From Symbiodinium sp. CCMP2592 (Eukaryota; Sar; Dinophyceae; Suessiales; Symbiodiniaceae): DNA of 64,000 nt. Positions 2,443 to 38,275 of this stretch are shown piece after piece (positions within the stretch are counted from its first letter, which is position 1; each line of letters begins with the position of its first letter). Location: the NCBI GenBank assembly GCA_905221615.1, contig CAJNDT010002002.1:558001-622000 (forward strand). Reading direction: 5' to 3'. The notes under the pieces were generated by a model that was not told where the DNA came from, did no database searches, and saw only the letters and a program-made list of their open reading frames with translations. The translations under genes and the position numbers were made by a program.

Positions 2443-2636
2443 TGCAAGAACTCTCGAAGTTCTTAGTGCTTCAAGCCGTGAAGTGTCAGGCATTCGCAGC
2501 CTTGAGTGATCAAAAGAAGGGCGCCCGCTGCAGTCTCCTAACCCTCGTTCGCCAGGGCCATTCGACTGAGCGTTGCCATAGTCTGCTGTCATTCTGTCGC
2601 TTGATCGGGGAAGCACCAGCAAGCCGGGGGCTTGCA
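2443..2636 (+). repeat. 5' LTR of the copia element
   Basis: This 194-bp LTR has short inverted ends TGCAAG/CTTGCA instead of the usual TG..CA alone. It is identical to 10878-11071. It should hold the promoter and transcription start, but I recognise no TATA box. Confidence 0.95.
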
Positions 2637-2650
2637 TGGTAGCGGAGCCC
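2637..2650 (+). other. Primer-binding site (initiator tRNA-Met type)
   Basis: TGGTAGCGGAGC starts directly after the 5' LTR. It resembles the plant copia site TGGTATCAGAGC, which pairs with the 3' end of initiator tRNA-Met. Confidence 0.8.
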
Positions 2651-2712
2651 TGAGGGGCTCGTGATTCCAGGGACCTATTCTGCTCGACGGTCCGCTACCC
2701 TCGAGCAGCACG

Positions 2713-4578
2713 ATGAGCACCGGTGATGCTGGTGCCCCGAAGGCAAAGATACCCACCTGGGATGGCGCGTCGGAAACCTTCCAGACTTATCAAGAGTCAG
2801 CGAGACTCTTCGAGCAGACGGTGGAGTACAAGAAACGATACCTCTGCGGACCTCAGCTTCAAGGAGCTTTGGAAGGAGCGGCGAAGCGCTTTGTGGTTGG
2901 GAAGCCACCCGACTGGCTTTCTTTTCCAGGTGGAGTGGAGAGTTTGCTGGAGCATTTGCGACAATGCCTTGGCAAGCCCCAGATGCCGGAGTTGACAGAG
3001 CTGCTAGGGAAATACTTCCGTGGATCGAAGCGCCGATCTGGAGAAACGATGAATGAATATATTTCCCGCAAGTGCGAAGTGTATGTTCGCGCTCAGCAAG
3101 CTATGGGACGTGTGAGGCCATACCATGACAACTTCCCTCGCGGCGGTCACTACCTGGGCCCAAGTCCTTGGGAGCGACAAGGTCGCCGCCTGAGCACTGG
3201 CTCCTGGGTGAGCAATACGGCCGAGACGCAGGATGATGAGGATGGAGATGTGCCACCCGTCCAGGCAGCAGCACCTACAGCATCAGATGCGAGCACTACC
3301 GAGGACCGCCGTTCTGATTGGGACGGCTCCAGCTGGTGGTCCAGAAATCAGTGGAACTGGTATGGATCCTCGTGGTCCAGCTACTCGGACTATGGCTCGC
3401 AGTGGAATGCTTGGCAACCAGCCCGACAACAGTCCAACTCCAGTCTGCCTGACCTCGTGCCAGAGTTCATTCAAGCATGGCTTCTCTTGAATGATGCCAA
3501 TCTGGAGGCAGGGGAAAGGAACATGATCCTGACAGCAGTCCAGGGCGATTTGACTCTCCAAAGGATCGCCCAAGAACTGCGCAACCAGTTTCCAGAGAAT
3601 GAGCTTCGTCGGAAGGAGCCTCGGAAACAACAAGGGTACTGGGGTGAAGATCAAGACCTCACCGACGAGGACGAGAAGCCCAACACCGAGGTCAACTTCG
3701 AGGCAGCGGAAGAGCTCAACGAGGAGGGCTACGCCGTGTGGAGCGAGGCCGAAGGCGAGGTACAGAGTGCCCTCGCTGCTATGTTTCAGGCAAAGCGCAC
3801 TTTGCGCAGTGCTCGTGAAAAACAGAAGCAAGTCCGCTTGAACAGACAGTACTACCAGGGTAATGGAGGTCGCGGCTCCCAGTCTTCCCGGAATGATGAT
3901 CACATCACCTGCCTACGCTGTGGCGAGGTAGGTCACCGGGCCGCCACTTGTCCAGCGGCCAAACCACGGGCGGATCCACCAGCGGGGAAGCAGATGGCTC
4001 CCTTCGTGTGCTATGCGGAAGACTACTACGCCGAAGAAGCCCTCCATGCGGAAGCCGATCCACTACCAAAGGCCACCACCGCGGAAGCGGTAGAGCAAGG
4101 CAAGGCTGTGGTAGACTGCGGTGCCACTCGCAGTCTTGGTTCCGTCTACGCCTTGGAAAAGGTGATGCAGCTGAGCAAGGTGCCCGGAAGCCGAGTGGAC
4201 ACCGAGAACCAGCCAGTGTTTGGGTTTGGCAACTCCACCGAGGATCGATGTGTCAGCACGTTGCATCTGCAGCTCACTGCCGGAGGACGACCTGGCACTT
4301 TGCAGATACATGCACTTGATCGTGGAGCGGCTCCAATCCTTCTGAGCGTCGCCACATTGAAGGCTCTCAAGGCCGTCCTTGATTTTTCAGACGGCACGAT
4401 GGTCCTGAGGGGCCTGGATGCAAGTCAAGTTTTGCAGCTGGAAGAATCTAGCACGGGACATCTCCTTCTGTCCCTGACTGAGGATTTGCTTTCTAAGGCA
4501 ATGCCTACGCATTCGCCCGTTCCAGGGTTGAGGGATTATGTGAAGACGGCAAAGCAGGCCAACCCTCCACCTGAGTAG
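2713..4578 (+). CDS. Gag and aspartic protease polyprotein (ORF1)
   Basis: This 621-residue ORF is the structural protein of the retrotransposon plus its maturation protease. It starts at the first ATG, 76 bases past the LTR. A capsid-like helical N-terminal half is followed by a Trp/Ser/Tyr-rich stretch (about residues 205-240), an acidic segment, one CCHC zinc knuckle with C400, C403, H408 and C413, and a retropepsin-like site DCGAT at 468-472 (usual form DSGAT/DTGA). A hydrophobic stretch near residues 535-555 fits the second half of the protease fold. It ends at a TAG at 4576-4578. The downstream pol frame is in the same phase and has no other stop, so the TAG may be read through. The ILLS segment that follows supports a real protease domain. 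Confidence 0.9.
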   Translation: MSTGDAGAPKAKIPTWDGASETFQTYQESARLFEQTVEYKKRYLCGPQLQGALEGAAKRFVVGKPPDWLSFPGGVESLLEHLRQCLGKPQMPELTELLGKYFRGSKRRSGETMNEYISRKCEVYVRAQQAMGRVRPYHDNFPRGGHYLGPSPWERQGRRLSTGSWVSNTAETQDDEDGDVPPVQAAAPTASDASTTEDRRSDWDGSSWWSRNQWNWYGSSWSSYSDYGSQWNAWQPARQQSNSSLPDLVPEFIQAWLLLNDANLEAGERNMILTAVQGDLTLQRIAQELRNQFPENELRRKEPRKQQGYWGEDQDLTDEDEKPNTEVNFEAAEELNEEGYAVWSEAEGEVQSALAAMFQAKRTLRSAREKQKQVRLNRQYYQGNGGRGSQSSRNDDHITCLRCGEVGHRAATCPAAKPRADPPAGKQMAPFVCYAEDYYAEEALHAEADPLPKATTAEAVEQGKAVVDCGATRSLGSVYALEKVMQLSKVPGSRVDTENQPVFGFGNSTEDRCVSTLHLQLTAGGRPGTLQIHALDRGAAPILLSVATLKALKAVLDFSDGTMVLRGLDASQVLQLEESSTGHLLLSLTEDLLSKAMPTHSPVPGLRDYVKTAKQANPPPE

Positions 4579-4752
4579 GGACAACTCCTTTCCCCATCGC
4601 GTCCTGACGAGAAGGGAAAGGGCCAATGTAGAGTTTCAGGACAGGGTTTAGCCACAACTGAATCGAGTTGTGTTGTTGATGCTAATGGTTTTTCGGCTCC
4701 CGGAAGTCATTGTACTAACTGTCGTAATGATGATGAAGATGATGGAGCGTGG

Positions 4753-7700
4753 ATGTTAGTGACTCCTGATGCACCGCACCTTGCAGTGTCAGATCAATCG
4801 AATCAGTCGCATGCACAACAGCCGGCAGTGAAGTCCGTCCACACCTCAGCCGTTGTCAACCCGAGTTGTGCTTCAGCGCCTTCCATATCCTCCTTGCCAT
4901 CGCCTTTGGTGACTCAACATGTCGGACCTCAAGCGCGCTCAGCTCTTGGAGGCCCTACGAGAGGCCGGGGAGGAACCGCCCAAGGCCTGGACGAATGTGG
5001 AACTTCGGGTGAGGTTGTCCGAAGTCCTTGGAGAAGATCTGAGCAAGACCAGCCGTCAGTTGAAACTGACCACCAGCGACATATCCGAGTACCACGAGCT
5101 CATGAAGGAGATGAAGCAGGCTGCCAACAAGCGGAAGGCCGACCTCCTCAACTTCGTGACGCAGCGCCTGGGGCTGACCAATGTGGACAGCTTCACCGTG
5201 GAACGCCTGAAGATGGCATCGGTGCAGAAGATTCTCGAGGTGACCACACCTCATGCCACCGATCCGGTGGGCTTTGGCAAGCACGCGGCCAAGACCTACC
5301 AAGAGACCTTGAAGATCGACTACCAGTACTGCACTTGGGTACAGGAAACCGCCAAGACCGAGGAGTGCAACATGAGGTTGATCCGCTTCGCCAAGTGGCT
5401 CGACGTCCAGGACAAGACCGAGATGATCCCGGTCCACCAGGAGGAGACGAAGAAACCCTTGAAGGTGGCCTCGTGGACGAGGGGCTACCGCAAGGACAAG
5501 CCCGAGCCTCCGGGCAGTGCGTCACCGAAGACTACACCTCGCGAGTCCACCGCCAGCAGTTCGTCCGGTTTGGAGAGCAAAATGGAAGCGATGATGAACA
5601 TGATGCAGAAGCTTCAGGCCGAAGTGGCGGACATCAAGGACGAGAAGCTTCCCCGCAAGAAGGTGGGCACGAAGGCACGCGACTACCACGAAGAGGCCGA
5701 AGCAGTCAACCCGAGTGTGAACGGCCATGTCGACACGGAGCTGTAGACACGGACAGCGCAGCTTCTGAGGCAGAAGACAGTATGAGTCCCAGCCCAAGCA
5801 ATCAACGAGGTCCAAAGCTCAGTGCTTCACAGCAGCTCAGTGCTAAGTTGTCCATAGGAAAGGCCCGACACTTAGAGGACACGGCCTGGTCTGTTGTGCC
5901 CGACCTGTTTGAGGGTTTAGTGAAGCATAGACGAACGGACCTCATGGAGATTGCCAGTGGCCCGGACAGCTTGTTGTCGCAACAGATCCAGGAGCTTGCG
6001 GGATCTACGGAAGCGGCCACTCAATGCTCTGTGTATAATGGTTGCGAACTCACGAATGATAGTGGGGTGCGATTGATACTACAGCGCCTGGAGCTGGAGC
6101 GACCAGCTCATGTGTGGATTAGGCCTCCCTCAGGACCCTACTCTCCCCTTCAGCATAACAACGCCCAAAGCCCTGAACAGAAACAGGAGTTGCAGGTGAA
6201 GCGGGAACAAGCTATGCGAGCCTACGTAGGAGCGTGTATTGTGTTTCGAGCATGTTTGAACCAGGGAGTGCACGTGAGTTTGGAACTGGCCGAGCGCTGT
6301 CAAGCTTGGCGACTTCCCATTCTGAATCAACTTCGGGACCAGTGTTCTCTGTATCAAGCGGTGTGCAAGGGTTGTAGAGTGAATCTTCGTGATCGTAAGG
6401 GAGTGTTGATGCAGAAAGGATGGAAAATCCTCACGACCCACCGTAGACTGGCGGAAATCCTGAACCTTCCCTGTAGGTGCCCCCAAAGCTTCAAACACGG
6501 CCAGTGTACGGGCAGTGACGCTGCCAAAAGCGAGCTTTACACCAAGGAGTTCGTGCAGAAGGTTGCAAAAGGAATCCTTCAGGAATTCGATCATGTGAAT
6601 CTGCTTCAGGAAGCCAAGGGCCCGGGAAGTCCCGGGTTGCCTCAGGACTTCGGTTTGGGTTGTAGGTGTCAGTGTAAAGAGGTTTCTCTTCCCCAAAGGC
6701 CCCGTAAATGCGCGACGTGTTTGATGGAGGTTCCAGACAGCTCGAGCGAGGGTTTTTGGCTAAGGCAGGTGGAAGAACAGGACTTGAGACTGGATTCTGA
6801 CAGGGAAGCGGGTTTTGCGGTTGATTGTTGCGAGGTTGAGGGCTTTGCGGATCAGGCCATTCAGAAACAGGACTTCTCCCATGACACGTGTGAACAACTT
6901 CTTGACCTGTTACCATGTAGATTGCACGAAGGCCACCGAGGTATGTTGGATGCGCAGTCCCAACAGTATCTGATCTTTGGCGCCTACTCCCATGGTAACC
7001 ACTATGGTCTGACTAAGAGGTCCCAAAAATACCCCAAAATGATTAAGTACCTTCTGTCGTACATGCGTCACTGGAGTCCCGAACCACTGCAAGCTACGTC
7101 CTTGGTTGTGAACTTCAACGGTAAGTGTCCTTTGCACAAAGACCAACATAATGATGCGTCGTACCCGAATGCGGTGGTAGGGCTAGGAACGTACCAGGGA
7201 GGTGAGCTCTGGGTAGCCCGTGAAAGCCCAACAGAAGGGGAAAGGGGCGCCTTGACAAAGGCGCTACCCAACGGCCAGCAAGCGGCTGGCGATCTCTACG
7301 ACATCTACCGAACCGTCCAGCGATTCTCTCCCAAGGTGTGGCATGGGCCGCAAGCGTGGACAGGGCGTAGAATAGTTGTGGGTACGTACGTGACTAGAGG
7401 CCACCGTCAGTTGTCAGAGGCCCAGCGTAAGGAGTTGCAAGGTTTGGGTTTTCAGATTCCGAGAGATTCGGGAAGCGATGAGCATCAGGCCTACGCCGTT
7501 CAGGGTTTGCGACTAGGTCCCCATAGTCCCCCAATGAGCCCAGAACAAATCAAGAAACAGCTGTACAAACTTCACGCCGCAACGGGGCATGGAAGTACTC
7601 GAAGTCTTGTGAACATGCTTAGGAAGCGGAATGTGAGTGCGGAGGTTCTTAAGCTGGCGGAGGAGTTTCAGTGTTCTGCTTGTGCCGAACGACGTAGGAT

Positions 7701-10700
7701 ACAGCCTCGCCACTTAGCTTCGTTGGAGGCCCTGCCCCCCAAACTTCATACCATCTCCACGGATATAGGCCATTGGACTCATCCTCAGACTGGAGAAATC
7801 GTGCAGTTCATGCTGATTATCGATGAAGGCAGTAGGTTCCGAACTGCTCGCATCCTCTCCCGCGGTTCGAAGAAACAGCCCAACGCCAGTTCGTGCATTC
7901 ACTATCTTCGAGAGGGTTGGGCCCAGTACTTTGGAATGCCAAGGGCTCTGAGATTGGATGCTGCCGGTGCATTTGTGAGTCAACAACTAGTGGAATTCTG
8001 CGATCAAGAGGGAATCTTCTTGGACAACATACCTGCTGATGGACATTGGCAGATTGGGGTTTGCGAACAGGCGATTCAGGGAGTGAAGGAAGTCATGGAT
8101 AAAATCTGTAGCACGCAGGACCAAGTGACATCCGAAACGGCCTTGGCCCACGCCATCACAACCTTTAATGCTCGAGAACAGGTGCGAGGTTTCTCTCCCA
8201 TTCAGCATGTGTTTGGTCGCAGCCCAGACATCACTGGTAGGCTCCTGCAGACTGCTGGAAGCATTCCTGATGAATTGGTGATAGAGAGCGCGACTGAAGA
8301 ACTGGAAGCCTCCGCTAGGTTACGGGCTGAGGCAGAGAAGGCTCATGCAGAATGGCACGCAGCACAACGGATTTCAAGAGCAAAGAACTCTCGAGCCCGT
8401 CCACGGGCCAGTTACCAAGCTGGCGATTTGATCTACTTCTGGCGTACCCAGGAGTCTGGACAGGGAAGAAGGTCCCCAGGGACCAAACATGGCCGGTTCC
8501 TAGGCCCTGCCAGGGTTCTGGCCGTGGAATCCAAACGAGATGAAGACGGCAGCCATCGCGCCGGCAGCACGGTGTGGTGTGTACGCGGCCGTAATCTGAT
8601 CAAATGTTGCGTGGAGCAGCTACGGCATGCATCGGAGCGAGAGCAATTGTTGGAATCTTTGGCAGCGCCACATGGGCATGACCCCACTCCTTGGACGTTC
8701 ACGCGAGTTGCTGAAGAGATAGGAGGCAACCAATTTCAAGATGTGTCTCAGGAAGTACCGTCGGCAATGGAGTGGGAACGAGCTCAGGATGTGTTGCAAG
8801 AAGCGCCTCCTCCTCGGTTCCGGTTTCGAGGAAAGAGGGCTCAACCAGAGCCAGCTGAGGTTCTCACTGACGCAGACCCTCCCGAGCCCGCCAGTGGTTC
8901 GCGAGGACCTGTGGCCCGAACTTCCACGCCGCCCATGGCCACTTGGACGGATGCTGTTGAGGAGAGATGGTATCAGAAGGTGCCAGAGACGTCATGGTAT
9001 GCCCAAGACAGTGCGTTTTGGACAGATCAAACTGCCGCCGTGGAGGTAAGCATTGACATGCCAACCAGCAAGCAAGGATGGACGAAGGCAAACCGATGCC
9101 TCAAATCCTACTTTGTTGGTGCCTTAAAGCGACGCGCCGCGGAAGTGTCAGAACGCCACTTGAACCCGGAGGAGCTACAGCGATTCAGGGATGCCAAACA
9201 AGTGGAAGTGAACAACTTCATCGCCTCCAACGCCTTCGAGAGCTTGCCGGAACATCTGGCCCCGAGCAAGGAACAGGCAGTCAACATGCGCTGGCTGCTG
9301 ACGTGGAAAGTTAAAGAAGACGGTAGCAGGAAACCCAAAGCCCGGGCGGTGCTTTTGGGGTACCAAGACCCCTCGTACGCTCACAGAAGCACAACAGCTC
9401 CGGTGATGACCAGGACTTCACGCCAGTTATTTCTGCAAGCAGCCGCCAATCACTCATGGCGAGTCTTCAAGGGCGACGTCACGGGAGCTTTTCTGCAAGG
9501 ACGAGAGTACCCAGACAACCTCTTCTGCATTCCTTGTCCAGAGATTTGTGAAGCGATGCAAATTCCAGTTGGATCCATTACCAAGCTCCGAAGAGCTTGT
9601 TACGGCTTGGTGGACGCGCCTTTGGAATGGTATCGTACCATTTCCGAATACTTCGCCGAGCTGGGCTTAGTGCGCCTTTGGTCAGACGCTTGCATGTGGG
9701 CCTGGCGCGTGAATGGACAGCTTCGAGGCCTCATAACGGGCCACGTGGATGATTTCCTGTTCGCTGGAGCAGACGACGATCCTGAGTGGCAAGCCATCCT
9801 TCAGAAAATCAAGGAACGGTTCAAATGGGGCGATTGGGAACAAGACGACTTCATTCAATGCGGTGTTCGTATACAGCAGACCAGCCAAGGTTTCCAGTTG
9901 TCACAGGCCCGCTACGTGGAGGACATTCCCGAAATACCGTTGAATCATTCCCGTAGGAAAGACCGCAACCAGCCAACCACTGCTTGGGAGAAAACAAAAC
10001 TTCGTGCATTGCTCGGTGCAGTCTCTTGGCACGCGCAACAAGTTGCGCCCCACTTTGCCGCTGAGGTGAGCTTGTTGCTGTCAGATGTAAATGAGAGCAC
10101 AGTGGCCACTCTACTACAGGCAAACCAGCTGTTGCAGAGTGCTAAGGCGAGGAAGGGGCATCAGATGCTCATTCATGCTTTTAATCCTGAGGTTGAGCTT
10201 GGGTGTTACGCTTGGGTGGATGCCGCAAACGAGAACCGCCGCGATGGCGGAAGCACTCAGGGAATCTTCATCGGACTGGCACCGGCCAGTCTACTGAAAG
10301 GCGAAGTGGGGCAAGTTTCGCCCATCTCCTGGCAGTCCCATAAGATTGACCGGGTGTGTAGAAGCCCCGGTGCTGCTGAAGTGCAGGCGGCTGTGAATGG
10401 CGAGGACCAGCTGTACTACGTGCGCTTCCAATGGAGCGAAATGCTTCATGGATGCGTACACACTAAGGACCCAGACAGCGCAGTGACTAAGGTGTTGGGA
10501 TGCGTCATAACCGATTCGCGGAACGTGTATGACAAGCTACAAACAGAAGTCCTCTCGATCAAAGGAGCGGAGAAGAAGGCCAATATCGAGTTGCTCAGCA
10601 TTAAGGAGGCCCAGGCCAAGACGCAGGTGATCATTCGATGGGTACATTCCGAAGCCCAACTAGGCAATTCGCTTACCAAGCATAATGCCAACAAAGAGCT

Positions 10701-10836
10701 GGAGTTATTCTACAGAATGCATCACTGCTGGAGGATTGTCGAAGACTCCCAGATGCGCTCGGCACGCAAGAGGCGGACTGAAGGTCTGGATACACTGCAG
10801 GGTGATGGTGCTGATGAAGTCTTCTTGTTGATGTAA
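4753..10836 (+). CDS. Pol: MTase-like, TET/JBP-like, integrase, RT, RNase H
   Basis: The frame is open for 2,027 codons from this ATG, and open back to 4579 after the gag TAG. Residues 1-330 overlap ORF2 and look non-coding. Residues 397-406 (LMEIASGPDS) and 453-464 (WIRPPSGPYS) resemble motifs I and IV of cytosine-C5 methyltransferases, but the PPC cysteine is Ser460. Residues about 780-890 look like a 2OG-Fe(II) dioxygenase: H795, D797, H799-N800, GGELWV at 816-821, WHG at 863-865 and R872/R873. Integrase follows, with zinc ligands H941, H946, C974 and C977 and the DD35E triad D1004, D1069 and E1105. RT has D1575 in KGDVTGAF and HVDD with D1666-D1667. RNase H begins near D1823. Integrase before RT is the copia order. 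The protein is presumably made as a Gag-Pol fusion. Confidence 0.9.
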   Translation: MLVTPDAPHLAVSDQSNQSHAQQPAVKSVHTSAVVNPSCASAPSISSLPSPLVTQHVGPQARSALGGPTRGRGGTAQGLDECGTSGEVVRSPWRRSEQDQPSVETDHQRHIRVPRAHEGDEAGCQQAEGRPPQLRDAAPGADQCGQLHRGTPEDGIGAEDSRGDHTSCHRSGGLWQARGQDLPRDLEDRLPVLHLGTGNRQDRGVQHEVDPLRQVARRPGQDRDDPGPPGGDEETLEGGLVDEGLPQGQARASGQCVTEDYTSRVHRQQFVRFGEQNGSDDEHDAEASGRSGGHQGREASPQEGGHEGTRLPRRGRSSQPECERPCRHGAVDTDSAASEAEDSMSPSPSNQRGPKLSASQQLSAKLSIGKARHLEDTAWSVVPDLFEGLVKHRRTDLMEIASGPDSLLSQQIQELAGSTEAATQCSVYNGCELTNDSGVRLILQRLELERPAHVWIRPPSGPYSPLQHNNAQSPEQKQELQVKREQAMRAYVGACIVFRACLNQGVHVSLELAERCQAWRLPILNQLRDQCSLYQAVCKGCRVNLRDRKGVLMQKGWKILTTHRRLAEILNLPCRCPQSFKHGQCTGSDAAKSELYTKEFVQKVAKGILQEFDHVNLLQEAKGPGSPGLPQDFGLGCRCQCKEVSLPQRPRKCATCLMEVPDSSSEGFWLRQVEEQDLRLDSDREAGFAVDCCEVEGFADQAIQKQDFSHDTCEQLLDLLPCRLHEGHRGMLDAQSQQYLIFGAYSHGNHYGLTKRSQKYPKMIKYLLSYMRHWSPEPLQATSLVVNFNGKCPLHKDQHNDASYPNAVVGLGTYQGGELWVARESPTEGERGALTKALPNGQQAAGDLYDIYRTVQRFSPKVWHGPQAWTGRRIVVGTYVTRGHRQLSEAQRKELQGLGFQIPRDSGSDEHQAYAVQGLRLGPHSPPMSPEQIKKQLYKLHAATGHGSTRSLVNMLRKRNVSAEVLKLAEEFQCSACAERRRIQPRHLASLEALPPKLHTISTDIGHWTHPQTGEIVQFMLIIDEGSRFRTARILSRGSKKQPNASSCIHYLREGWAQYFGMPRALRLDAAGAFVSQQLVEFCDQEGIFLDNIPADGHWQIGVCEQAIQGVKEVMDKICSTQDQVTSETALAHAITTFNAREQVRGFSPIQHVFGRSPDITGRLLQTAGSIPDELVIESATEELEASARLRAEAEKAHAEWHAAQRISRAKNSRARPRASYQAGDLIYFWRTQESGQGRRSPGTKHGRFLGPARVLAVESKRDEDGSHRAGSTVWCVRGRNLIKCCVEQLRHASEREQLLESLAAPHGHDPTPWTFTRVAEEIGGNQFQDVSQEVPSAMEWERAQDVLQEAPPPRFRFRGKRAQPEPAEVLTDADPPEPASGSRGPVARTSTPPMATWTDAVEERWYQKVPETSWYAQDSAFWTDQTAAVEVSIDMPTSKQGWTKANRCLKSYFVGALKRRAAEVSERHLNPEELQRFRDAKQVEVNNFIASNAFESLPEHLAPSKEQAVNMRWLLTWKVKEDGSRKPKARAVLLGYQDPSYAHRSTTAPVMTRTSRQLFLQAAANHSWRVFKGDVTGAFLQGREYPDNLFCIPCPEICEAMQIPVGSITKLRRACYGLVDAPLEWYRTISEYFAELGLVRLWSDACMWAWRVNGQLRGLITGHVDDFLFAGADDDPEWQAILQKIKERFKWGDWEQDDFIQCGVRIQQTSQGFQLSQARYVEDIPEIPLNHSRRKDRNQPTTAWEKTKLRALLGAVSWHAQQVAPHFAAEVSLLLSDVNESTVATLLQANQLLQSAKARKGHQMLIHAFNPEVELGCYAWVDAANENRRDGGSTQGIFIGLAPASLLKGEVGQVSPISWQSHKIDRVCRSPGAAEVQAAVNGEDQLYYVRFQWSEMLHGCVHTKDPDSAVTKVLGCVITDSRNVYDKLQTEVLSIKGAEKKANIELLSIKEAQAKTQVIIRWVHSEAQLGNSLTKHNANKELELFYRMHHCWRIVEDSQMRSARKRRTEGLDTLQGDGADEVFLLM
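4919..5746 (+). CDS. Overlapping ORF2, SAP-like N-terminus and coiled coil
   Basis: This 275-residue ORF lies in the +1 frame relative to gag and pol and sits wholly inside the open pol frame. Its start is fixed by an in-frame TGA three codons upstream of the ATG, so it cannot come from frameshifting out of an upstream reading in the same frame. Codons are strongly GC-ending and the product is Lys/Glu-rich with normal composition, whereas the pol frame over this stretch reads as Gly/Arg/Gln-rich shadow. Residues 1-40 (SDLKRAQLLEALREAG onward) resemble a SAP-type DNA-binding helix pair. A Met/Lys-rich helical segment near 220-240 could form a coiled coil, and the C-terminus is basic. I infer a second Gag-like or nucleic-acid-binding protein. 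How its translation starts is unclear. Confidence 0.7.
   Translation: MSDLKRAQLLEALREAGEEPPKAWTNVELRVRLSEVLGEDLSKTSRQLKLTTSDISEYHELMKEMKQAANKRKADLLNFVTQRLGLTNVDSFTVERLKMASVQKILEVTTPHATDPVGFGKHAAKTYQETLKIDYQYCTWVQETAKTEECNMRLIRFAKWLDVQDKTEMIPVHQEETKKPLKVASWTRGYRKDKPEPPGSASPKTTPRESTASSSSGLESKMEAMMNMMQKLQAEVADIKDEKLPRKKVGTKARDYHEEAEAVNPSVNGHVDTEL
5935..6560 (+). other. Cytosine methyltransferase-like region of Pol
   Basis: Pol residues about 395-600. A motif I-like loop (397-406), a PPSGPYS motif IV-like loop (458-464) and VSLELAERCQAW (508-519, in the place of motif VI) occur in the order and spacing of Dcm-type C5-methyltransferases. The catalytic Cys of motif IV is Ser. Cys-rich segments (HGQC, CRCQC, CATC) follow. 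The region may be catalytically dead, may bind AdoMet or DNA only, or may be a different Rossmann-like fold. Confidence 0.4.
7075..7415 (+). other. TET/JBP-like 2OG-Fe(II) dioxygenase region of Pol
   Basis: Within pol residues about 775-887 the order is CPLHKDQHND (H795-x-D797), an aromatic/Gly strand, GGELWV, and WHG..W.GRR..V..Y. That matches the iron ligands His-x-Asp...His and the 2-oxoglutarate-binding Arg of the double-stranded beta-helix fold. H-x-D-x-H-N and GG-x-L recall TET/JBP enzymes that oxidise 5-methylcytosine or thymine. Dinoflagellate DNA is rich in 5-hydroxymethyluracil, which makes this family biologically plausible. The assignment rests on motif reading, not on a profile search. 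Confidence 0.6.
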
Positions 10837-10858
10837 GACAGTTTACACAATTACTTCC

Positions 10859-10877
10859 GGGCGGGGAGCCGGGGGTA
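10859..10877 (+). other. Polypurine tract of the copia element
   Basis: A G-rich purine run interrupted by a few pyrimidines lies immediately upstream of the 3' LTR, the expected plus-strand priming site. Confidence 0.6.
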
Positions 10878-11071
10878 TGCAAGAACTCTCGAAGTTCTTA
10901 GTGCTTCAAGCCGTGAAGTGTCAGGCATTCGCAGCCTTGAGTGATCAAAAGAAGGGCGCCCGCTGCAGTCTCCTAACCCTCGTTCGCCAGGGCCATTCGA
11001 CTGAGCGTTGCCATAGTCTGCTGTCATTCTGTCGCTTGATCGGGGAAGCACCAGCAAGCCGGGGGCTTGCA
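10878..11071 (+). repeat. 3' LTR of the copia element
   Basis: This is the 194-bp direct repeat of the 5' LTR, followed by the target duplication GGGTT and telomere-like sequence. It should supply polyadenylation. Confidence 0.95.
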
Positions 11072-11114
11072 GGGTTTAGGGTTTAGGGTCGTCATTTCAG
11101 GATTTACTGCGAAT

Positions 11115-12935: not shown

Positions 12936-16940
<4,005 letters not shown>

Positions 16941-24659: not shown

Positions 24660-24965
24660 GTAACCTGAACCCTGAACCCTAAACCCTAAACCCTAAACCC
24701 CTAAACCCCTAAACCCTAAACCCTACACCCCTAAACCCCTAAACCCCTAAACCCTAAACCCTGAACCCTAAACCCCAAACCCCTAAACCCTAAACCCTAA
24801 ACCCTAAACCCCTAAACCCTAAACCCTAAACCCTAAACCCTAAACCCCTAAACCCCTAAACCCTAAACCCCAAACCCCTAAACCCTAAACCCTAAACCCT
24901 AAACCCCTAAACCCCTAAACCCTGAACCCTAAACCCTGAACCCTAACCTGAACCCTCAACCCCTA
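24660..24965. repeat. Telomere-like array, about 300 bp
   Basis: The longest near-regular CCCTAAA/CCCCTAAA tract in the window. Confidence 0.95.
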
Positions 24966-27571: not shown

Positions 27572-27674
27572 CGGTTTAGGGTTTAGGGGTTTAGGGTTTA
27601 GGGTTTAGGGTTTAGGGTTTAGGGTTTAGGGTTTAGGGTTTAGGGTTTAGGGTTTAGGGTTTAGGGTTTAGGGT
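27572..27674. repeat. Perfect TTTAGGG array
   Basis: About 14 consecutive near-perfect TTTAGGG units, in the opposite orientation to the 24.7-kb array. Confidence 0.95.
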
Positions 27675-28215
27675 TCTCTTCGTCGAATTTAAAGTTTCAG
27701 GAGGGTTTAGGGTTTAGCATCTTTAGGGTTTAGCGGTTTAGCGGTTTAGGGTTTAGGGTTTATAGCTGTTTAGGGGTTGACAGGGTTCAGGGGTTTCGAA
27801 TTTTAAAGTTTGAGGGCTCAGGGATTGGGGCTCAGGGTTCAGAGCTTTAGCCCTAAAAACCTCCCTCGGAGGCCCGCAATGAAGGAGGGTTGCCCTTACT
27901 TGGAGGTTCTTTGAAGGGCCGCATAAGGGATCTATTGGGTTCTTTCGGGGATCTATGGGGTTCTACAGGGGATCTATAGGGTCTACTTGGAGGGTCATGG
28001 GTATGTCAGAAGTGGGGTTACAAGTTCGGCTATAAGGGTTCTACAGGGTCTAGGGTTTAAGGTTTAGGGTTTAGGGTAGTTATCAGTGGGGTTATAAGCA
28101 GGATAACGTTTGTTATAGCCCACATGAGGGAACTTATAGCTCTGCTTAGAACTCCCCATGAACCTAAAGGTGCCCCTAGTTGAAGGATCAGCTTTACGTA
28201 CACGCCGACCTTCCA

Positions 28216-37929: not shown

Positions 37930-38275
37930 GTAAACCCTAAACATCCCTTACCCCTTAACCCTAAGCCCCTAATTCCCCCTTAACCCTAAACCCCCAAAAC
38001 CCTAAACCCCTAACCCCCTAAACCCTAAACATCCCTAAACCCCAAACCCCTGGAACATTGACGACATGAACCCGGGGACCATGAAGCACGGAAGGGCCAA
38101 ACCCTAAACCCCAACCCCCAAACCCTAAACCCCCAGCCCTAAACCCTAAACCTTAAACCCTAAACCCTAAACCCCAAGCCCTAAACCCCCAAACCCTAAA
38201 CCCCAAGCCTTAAACCCTAAACCTCAAACCCTAAACCCCAAGCCCTAAACCCCAAGCCTTAAACCCTAAACCCTA
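37930..38275. repeat. Telomere-like array before the kinase exon
   Basis: Diverged CCCTAAAC units run directly into the acceptor CCCTAG of the exon at 38277, so the repeat sequence itself supplies the splice site. Confidence 0.9.

Follow-up and report, generated by a model that had tools for sequence, protein, structure and literature searches.

A Candidate TET/AlkB-Like 2-Oxoglutarate Dioxygenase Domain in the Pol Protein of a Symbiodinium copia Retrotransposon

Results

The Element and the Dioxygenase Domain of Its Pol

The window analyzed here is a stretch of 64,000 nucleotides from Symbiodinium sp. CCMP2592 (assembly GCA_905221615.1, contig CAJNDT010002002.1, positions 558,001 to 622,000). 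An intact-looking retrotransposon of the copia type, bounded by long terminal repeats (LTRs), spans positions 2443–11071 of the window, and its LTRs, its target-site duplication (TSD), and an integrase lying upstream of the reverse transcriptase (RT) RVT_2 place it in the Ty1/copia group. Pfam matches in Pol are limited to the integrase core and RVT_2, and nothing is named in the approximately 570 residues from 366 to the integrase zinc motif (940). Part of this unnamed region is a predicted 2-oxoglutarate (2OG)-Fe(II) dioxygenase domain, with the following features (counts refer to 75 domain sequences):

6835..7461, + strand: TET/AlkB-like 2OG-Fe(II) dioxygenase domain, Pol residues 695–903, predicted from conservation, an AlphaFold2 model, and PDB comparisons
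7135..7143, + strand: H795-K-D797, predicted Fe(II) ligands (H795 in 73/75, D797 in 75/75)
7150..7152, + strand: N800 (D+3), at the position of TET2 N1387 by spacing (74/75)
7342..7344, + strand: H864, predicted third Fe(II) ligand (74/75)
7369..7371, + strand: R873, predicted 2OG ligand, at the position of CcTet R385 (75/75)
7387..7389, + strand: Y879 (R+6), at the position of CcTet F391 and TET2 Y1902 by spacing (Tyr or Phe in 73/75)

The initial annotation, made from the sequence alone, had described one uninterrupted pol frame with the motifs HxDxHN, GGELWV, WHG, and GRR in this order. This is confirmed, the motifs starting at residues 795 (HKDQHN, position 7135), 816 (7198), 863 (7339), and 871 (7363). 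The extent then proposed, 7075..7415, covers the catalytic half of the domain, which reaches from about 6835 to 7461.

Conservation of the Catalytic Residues

Relatives were sought with a Pol profile built from domain-bearing Pols, which gave 214 matches, 120 of them listed; the 124 proteins analyzed are that of the window and 123 fetched ones. Since domain-bearing queries were used to draw this sample, the shares of domain-bearing elements given below are not prevalences. Among the matches listed, all relatives with an organism in their name are from Symbiodinium, and the closest is P0002, with 94% identity over the alignable 75% of Pol residues 640–2027. A dioxygenase-domain profile, grown from the domain of the window, matches 97 of the 124 proteins. 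The conservation set contains the 75 full-length domain sequences, window included, and omits 22 partial matches.

Identity among the 75 sequences is low (pairwise mean 0.36, minimum 0.19). Only 14 of the 209 columns are identical in 73/75 sequences or better, and H795, D797, H864, and R873 are among them; other conserved columns are N800 (74/75), N806 (72/75), W863 (74/75), and R882 (74/75). Within the GRR motif it is the second arginine, R873, that is conserved, residue 872 being variable. The survey of related copia Pols that the initial annotation had called for thus finds the complete H, D, H, R set in 72/75 sequences, and with it, by sequence, the hallmark of 2OG-Fe(II) oxygenases, an HxD...H triad followed by a distal Arg. 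In the three incomplete sequences, H795 is replaced by R (P0003) or by Q (P0060), or H864 by R (P0017). Judged from these sequences, the residue pattern is not due to chance. Within the sample the catalytic set is kept almost throughout in spite of this divergence, so the enzyme is probably important to the element.

Predicted Fold and Sequence Searches

The AlphaFold2 model of the domain is confident (pLDDT 89.4, pTM 0.87) and agrees with the PDB comparisons in predicting a double-stranded β-helix, as had been anticipated. Among solved structures it comes closest to TET enzymes (CcTet from Coprinopsis cinerea and NgTET1 from Naegleria), followed by AlkB, ALKBH5, TET2, and FTO. The comparison with TET, AlkB, and prolyl hydroxylases, also proposed at the outset, puts TET first in both PDB lists, AlkB lying no more than about 1 Z behind and on a par with CcTet; protein hydroxylases are missing from the 50 rows shown of either list, an absence that is no exclusion.

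Sequence searches did not name the fold. The domain as a single sequence matched no oxygenase among PDB sequences or in Pfam, the weak calcium-uniporter matches of the PDB sequence search being taken as chance. Profile A2 against the PDB returned integrases and chance rows only, because its columns cover whole Pols, and the domain-only profile A4 returned one chance row. Matches to PHROG were weak: phrog_6059, which bears the name queuine tRNA-ribosyltransferase, fell on the HxD stretch with E 6.1e-5 for one piece and 0.16 for another. NCBIfam gave no match, and viral contigs, prokaryote contigs, and phage records held no relative at the sensitivity used, eukaryote genome collections lying outside the search.

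The Base Pocket

Equivalence with TET residues was set by spacing from HxD and from the 2OG arginine, without superposed coordinates. In the available part of PMC11040006, N4 of 5-methylcytosine (5mC) is hydrogen-bonded by TET2 Asn1387, NgTET1 Asp234, and CMD1 Asp350, CcTet having Gly331 there; CcTet D337 is the equivalent of TET2 T1393; CcTet R385 binds the 2OG analogue; CcTet F391 and TET2 Y1902 stack on the base; and the base O2 is contacted by CcTet R393, TET2 H1904, and NgTET1 H297. By spacing, N800 (D+3), N806 (D+9), R873, and Y879 (R+6) agree with a TET-type pocket, whereas T881 (R+8) disagrees. Residue 879 is Y in 55 sequences, F in 18, L in one, and E in one, and never Arg. The position adjoining R+8 is the conserved R882 (74/75).

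The domain thus shares with CcTet and NgTET1, its closest solved structures, the HxD...H...R arrangement and an aromatic residue at R+6, but identity is only 12–15% in the alignments shown and the H or R at R+8 is lacking. At D+3 it has Asn like TET2, in contrast to Asp in NgTET1 and Gly in CcTet.

Distribution and Inheritance

A tree of integrase and RT was made from 107 of the 124 Pols; 14 were dropped for having too little sequence upstream of the integrase and 3 for lacking integrase or RT. The domain profile matches 94 of these 107 Pols. Within the sample, the domain-bearing ones mostly share one clade, whose sister clade lacks the domain and contains nine of the 13 Pols without a match (P0101, P0103, P0108, P0109, P0111, P0115, P0116, P0118, and P0121). 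In the sister clade the methyltransferase-like domain is followed by a cysteine cluster and by the integrase at 92–125 residues, against 339–356 in three domain-bearing members checked. Three further Pols without a match, P0047, P0079, and P0083, are nested in the main clade, with low-complexity or other sequence at the domain site, and are read as secondary losses. For the remaining one, P0100, the gene model is doubtful.

Dioxygenase distances track integrase/RT distances (r 0.82, n = 75): the dioxygenase is co-inherited with Pol. Given this correlation and the distribution over clades, the most likely history is a single acquisition by a dinoflagellate copia lineage of a cassette slightly longer than 200 residues, which was then kept; on this tree, midpoint-rooted with no outgroup, loss in the sister clade is the alternative to gain.

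The Upstream Methyltransferase-Like Domain

Upstream of the dioxygenase lie the following features:

5848..6552, + strand: C5-methyltransferase-like domain, residues 366–600, unnamed by Pfam, recognized by fold
6124..6144, + strand: motif-IV-like PPSGPYS, with Ser460 replacing the catalytic Cys, from sequence
6649..6720, + strand: cysteine cluster FGxGxxCxC...CxxC, zinc-ribbon-like, residues 633–656, also found in relatives without the dioxygenase

The upstream domain has the fold of C5-cytosine methyltransferases. A profile of it matches 89/124 proteins, 66 of them at full length. The catalytic Cys of motif IV (PPC/PC), replaced by Ser460 in the window copy, is present in 40 of these 66 sequences, window included. 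A CxC...H..C cluster at residues 574–585 is more constant (C574, C576, and H582 each 66/66; C585 52/66). The catalytic Cys is kept in 28/54 sequences with a dioxygenase match versus 12/12 without (Fisher p 0.002, relatedness ignored). On a 63-tip tree there are 12 separate losses of the Cys, all within dioxygenase-bearing lineages, which has a probability of 0.03 from branch length alone. That the gain of the dioxygenase relaxed constraint on the methyltransferase cysteine is suggestive only.

Discussion

Function of the Domain

From sequence and model, we think it reasonably probable that Pol residues 695–903 form a catalytically competent 2OG/Fe(II) oxygenase of the nucleic-acid-base branch that works like TET. 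Oxidation of bases in DNA is indicated by the predicted fold together with iron and 2OG ligands that are intact, base positions of the TET type, and neighbors that face DNA, namely the methyltransferase fold and the integrase. The TET/JBP-like base dioxygenase of the initial annotation thus finds support in fold, ligands, and the residues at D+3 and R+6, but not in the Tet_JBP profile or at R+8; because of these last two, we do not file the domain as a TET/JBP member, but we retain that it probably works like TET.

Several observations weigh against this assignment. TET ranks ahead of AlkB by no more than about 1 Z, the TM-scores from Foldseek are modest (query-normalized 0.37–0.46 in the first 12 rows), and root-mean-square deviations are large (4.7–15.1 Å over 50 rows). 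TET and AlkB structures were probably among the training data of AlphaFold2, which makes the modelled fold a prediction and no independent proof. The domain of the window has no Pfam match of its own, and Tet_JBP, a model assumed to be present in Pfam, was not matched at E ≤ 10 (8 proteins, 7 pieces, and 30 proteins) or at E ≤ 1 (other Pfam scans), HMMER filters discarding most matches above 0.1. The H or R with which TET enzymes contact O2 at R+8 is found in 0/75 sequences, residue 881 being S in 41, T in 19, V in 6, A in 4, N in 2, C in 2, and Q in 1. Finally, 3/75 sequences lack one catalytic residue, and these include P0003, a fairly close relative.

In what we infer of the activity, substrate, timing, and benefit of the TET-like oxygenase, iron would be held by H795, D797, and H864 and 2OG by R873; a flipped base would be gripped by N800 and Y/F879 and its methyl group oxidized, from 5mC to 5-hydroxymethylcytosine (5hmC) and beyond, or from thymine to 5-hydroxymethyluracil (5hmU). 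The domain would have been inserted between the methyltransferase-like/cysteine module and the integrase and transmitted together with Pol ever after. Being a portion of Pol, the enzyme would reach the nucleus along with the integration complex, and its targets would be bases in the cDNA of the element, at the insertion site, or in integrated copies. Oxidation of 5mC might help a new copy to escape methylation-based silencing, and oxidation of thymine to 5hmU might make the element resemble the 5hmU-rich DNA of the host. A dinoflagellate 5hmU-producing enzyme reportedly silences transposable elements, going by the title of a paper by Li in PNAS in 2024; with that title in mind, self-silencing and counter-silencing are both possible for the element. 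A wider proposal seems to us distinctly unlikely: that the fused cytosine-methyltransferase-like and TET-like module of this copia lineage writes or erases 5mC/5hmC or 5hmU in the DNA of the element itself, that part of the 5hmU or oxidized 5mC of dinoflagellate repeats is made by retrotransposons, and that base-oxidizing enzymes of the host may share its origin.

The main alternative, to which a minor but real share of probability belongs, is an oxidative demethylase like AlkB or ALKBH5 that strips N-methyl groups from element RNA, primer tRNA, or cDNA and thereby protects reverse transcription or RNA stability. A similar RNA-protecting role has been proposed for the AlkB domains of plant RNA viruses (viral matches were seen), which likewise embed a 2OG oxygenase in the polyprotein of a replicating element; these are, however, RNA viruses with AlkB-type domains and no integrase. 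TET structures top both PDB comparisons, the TET-type Asn at D+3 and aromatic residue at R+6 are conserved where AlkB has Arg at R+6, and the neighbors of the domain are a DNA-methyltransferase-like fold on one side and an integrase on the other, all of which argues against an AlkB-like role. A protein hydroxylase, a 2OG oxygenase akin to prolyl-4-hydroxylase with Gag, the integrase, or a host factor as its substrate, is unlikely: the base-pocket Asn (74/75) and the PDB comparisons, within the rows shown, speak against it, although the one oxygenase family matched in Pfam is the generic PF13640 (2/7 pieces, below cut-off; 1/30 whole proteins, E 0.0029) and the H-to-R spacing of 9 occurs in PHD2 too. 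That the domain is a dead structural linker, a chance HxD/H pattern, or a gene-model artefact is hardly credible, for although the 13 tree Pols without it make it dispensable in some lineages, the single uninterrupted frame, the 97/124 profile matches (no prevalence), the 72/75 intact catalytic sets against a background of 36% identity, and the confident predicted fold tell otherwise. An assembly or gene-model artefact is ruled out by the intact frame, the identical LTRs, and the many relatives.

Comparison with Known Systems

Fungi have mobile elements that carry a 2OG oxygenase of the TET/JBP type, for which removal of silencing marks has been proposed: the part available of a 2025 survey names the DNA transposons Kyakuja, Zisupton, EnSpm, and PHISTA and some Helitrons as carrying TET/JBP genes (PMC12730594). 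Here, in contrast, the domain is part of the Pol frame itself, and the element is an LTR retrotransposon with named relatives from Symbiodinium. A TET-like oxygenase in such a Pol would occupy a place that the same survey states to be empty, an absence for which it attempts an explanation by copy number. DNA methyltransferases (DNMTs) are in turn found in retrotransposons, some from Symbiodinium and some Copia. In the portion available of PMC5890265, Symbiodinium LINE and DIRS elements carry DNMTs (SymbioLINE-Dnmt and SymbioDIRS-Dnmt3) and Symbiodinium Copia elements are reported without any DNMT domain; an excerpt of PMC12344493, treating streptophytes and dinoflagellates jointly, places DNMT3 in their LTR Copia and DIRS elements. 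Those DNMTs are recognized ones, whereas the copia Pol described here has a divergent C5-methyltransferase-like fold plus a dioxygenase. Writers (DNMTs) are thus known in retrotransposons and oxidizers (TET/JBP) in DNA transposons.

According to the available part of PMC11071213, 5hmU makes up 12–68% of thymine in dinoflagellate hosts (12% in Symbiodinium microadriaticum), is enriched on certain repeats, and is anti-correlated with accessibility. The word "dioxygenase" is absent from PMC5890265, PMC11071213, PMC11453091, PMC6338049, and PMC12014239, and the titles and abstract starts listed in searches of the open-licence PMC literature mention no dioxygenase in any copia Pol. As far as these searches reach, this would be a transposon-borne base oxygenase in a new element class, architecture, and host group. 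A TET-like domain could let a retrotransposon alter the chemical marks responsible for its silencing, and it makes testable the question of who oxidizes bases on dinoflagellate repeats and for whose benefit. For biochemistry, it offers a compact new oxygenase.

Other Features of the Element and Its Surroundings

2443..2636, + strand: 5′ LTR, 194 nucleotides, TG...CA
2713..4578, + strand: Gag open reading frame (ORF1), 621 amino acids, with matches in 12/123 fetched proteins
3910..3951, + strand: CCHC knuckle in Gag, Pfam match of 18 bits, below the cut-off of 20.8
4108..4143, + strand: DCGAT motif in Gag, read from the sequence
4753..10836, + strand: Pol reading frame, 2027 amino acids, uninterrupted, residues 1–340 probably noncoding as written
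4919..5746, + strand: conserved ORF, 275 amino acids, in a frame other than that of Pol, with matches in 17/123 fetched proteins
7570..8025, + strand: integrase, with HHCC from LHAATGH (7570) and the catalytic core rve at residues 1000–1091 (rve below the curated Pfam cut-off)
9262..9927, + strand: reverse transcriptase RVT_2, residues 1504–1725 (Pfam E 2.4e-22)
10878..11071, + strand: 3′ LTR, 194 nucleotides, TG...CA

The element had been supposed to be young, and indeed its LTRs are identical (194/194) and flanked by a 5-bp TSD, GGGTT, at 2438–2442 and 11072–11076. The DCGAT motif of Gag is presumably akin to a retropepsin active site. The Pol frame opens directly past the Gag stop (4579), in the frame of Gag; Pol might be translated by frameshift, by read-through, or from a separate mRNA. 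The ORF at 4919–5746, conserved among the fetched proteins, overlaps the first ~340 codons of the Pol frame in another frame, so that these codons are probably noncoding in their present form; their one match among the 123 fetched proteins (P0003, 30%, E 7e-8) counts against calling them noncoding.

The element is embedded in degenerate TTTAGGG-like telomere-type repeats (2380–2442 and 11072–11100, including the TSD GGGTT), and CCTAAAC arrays similar to these flanking repeats occur at 14410–14571, 24664–24962, 27573–27762, and 38099–38275. An ACT trinucleotide array of 264 copies at 15419–16213 makes up most of a 371-amino-acid ORF at 15178–16293.
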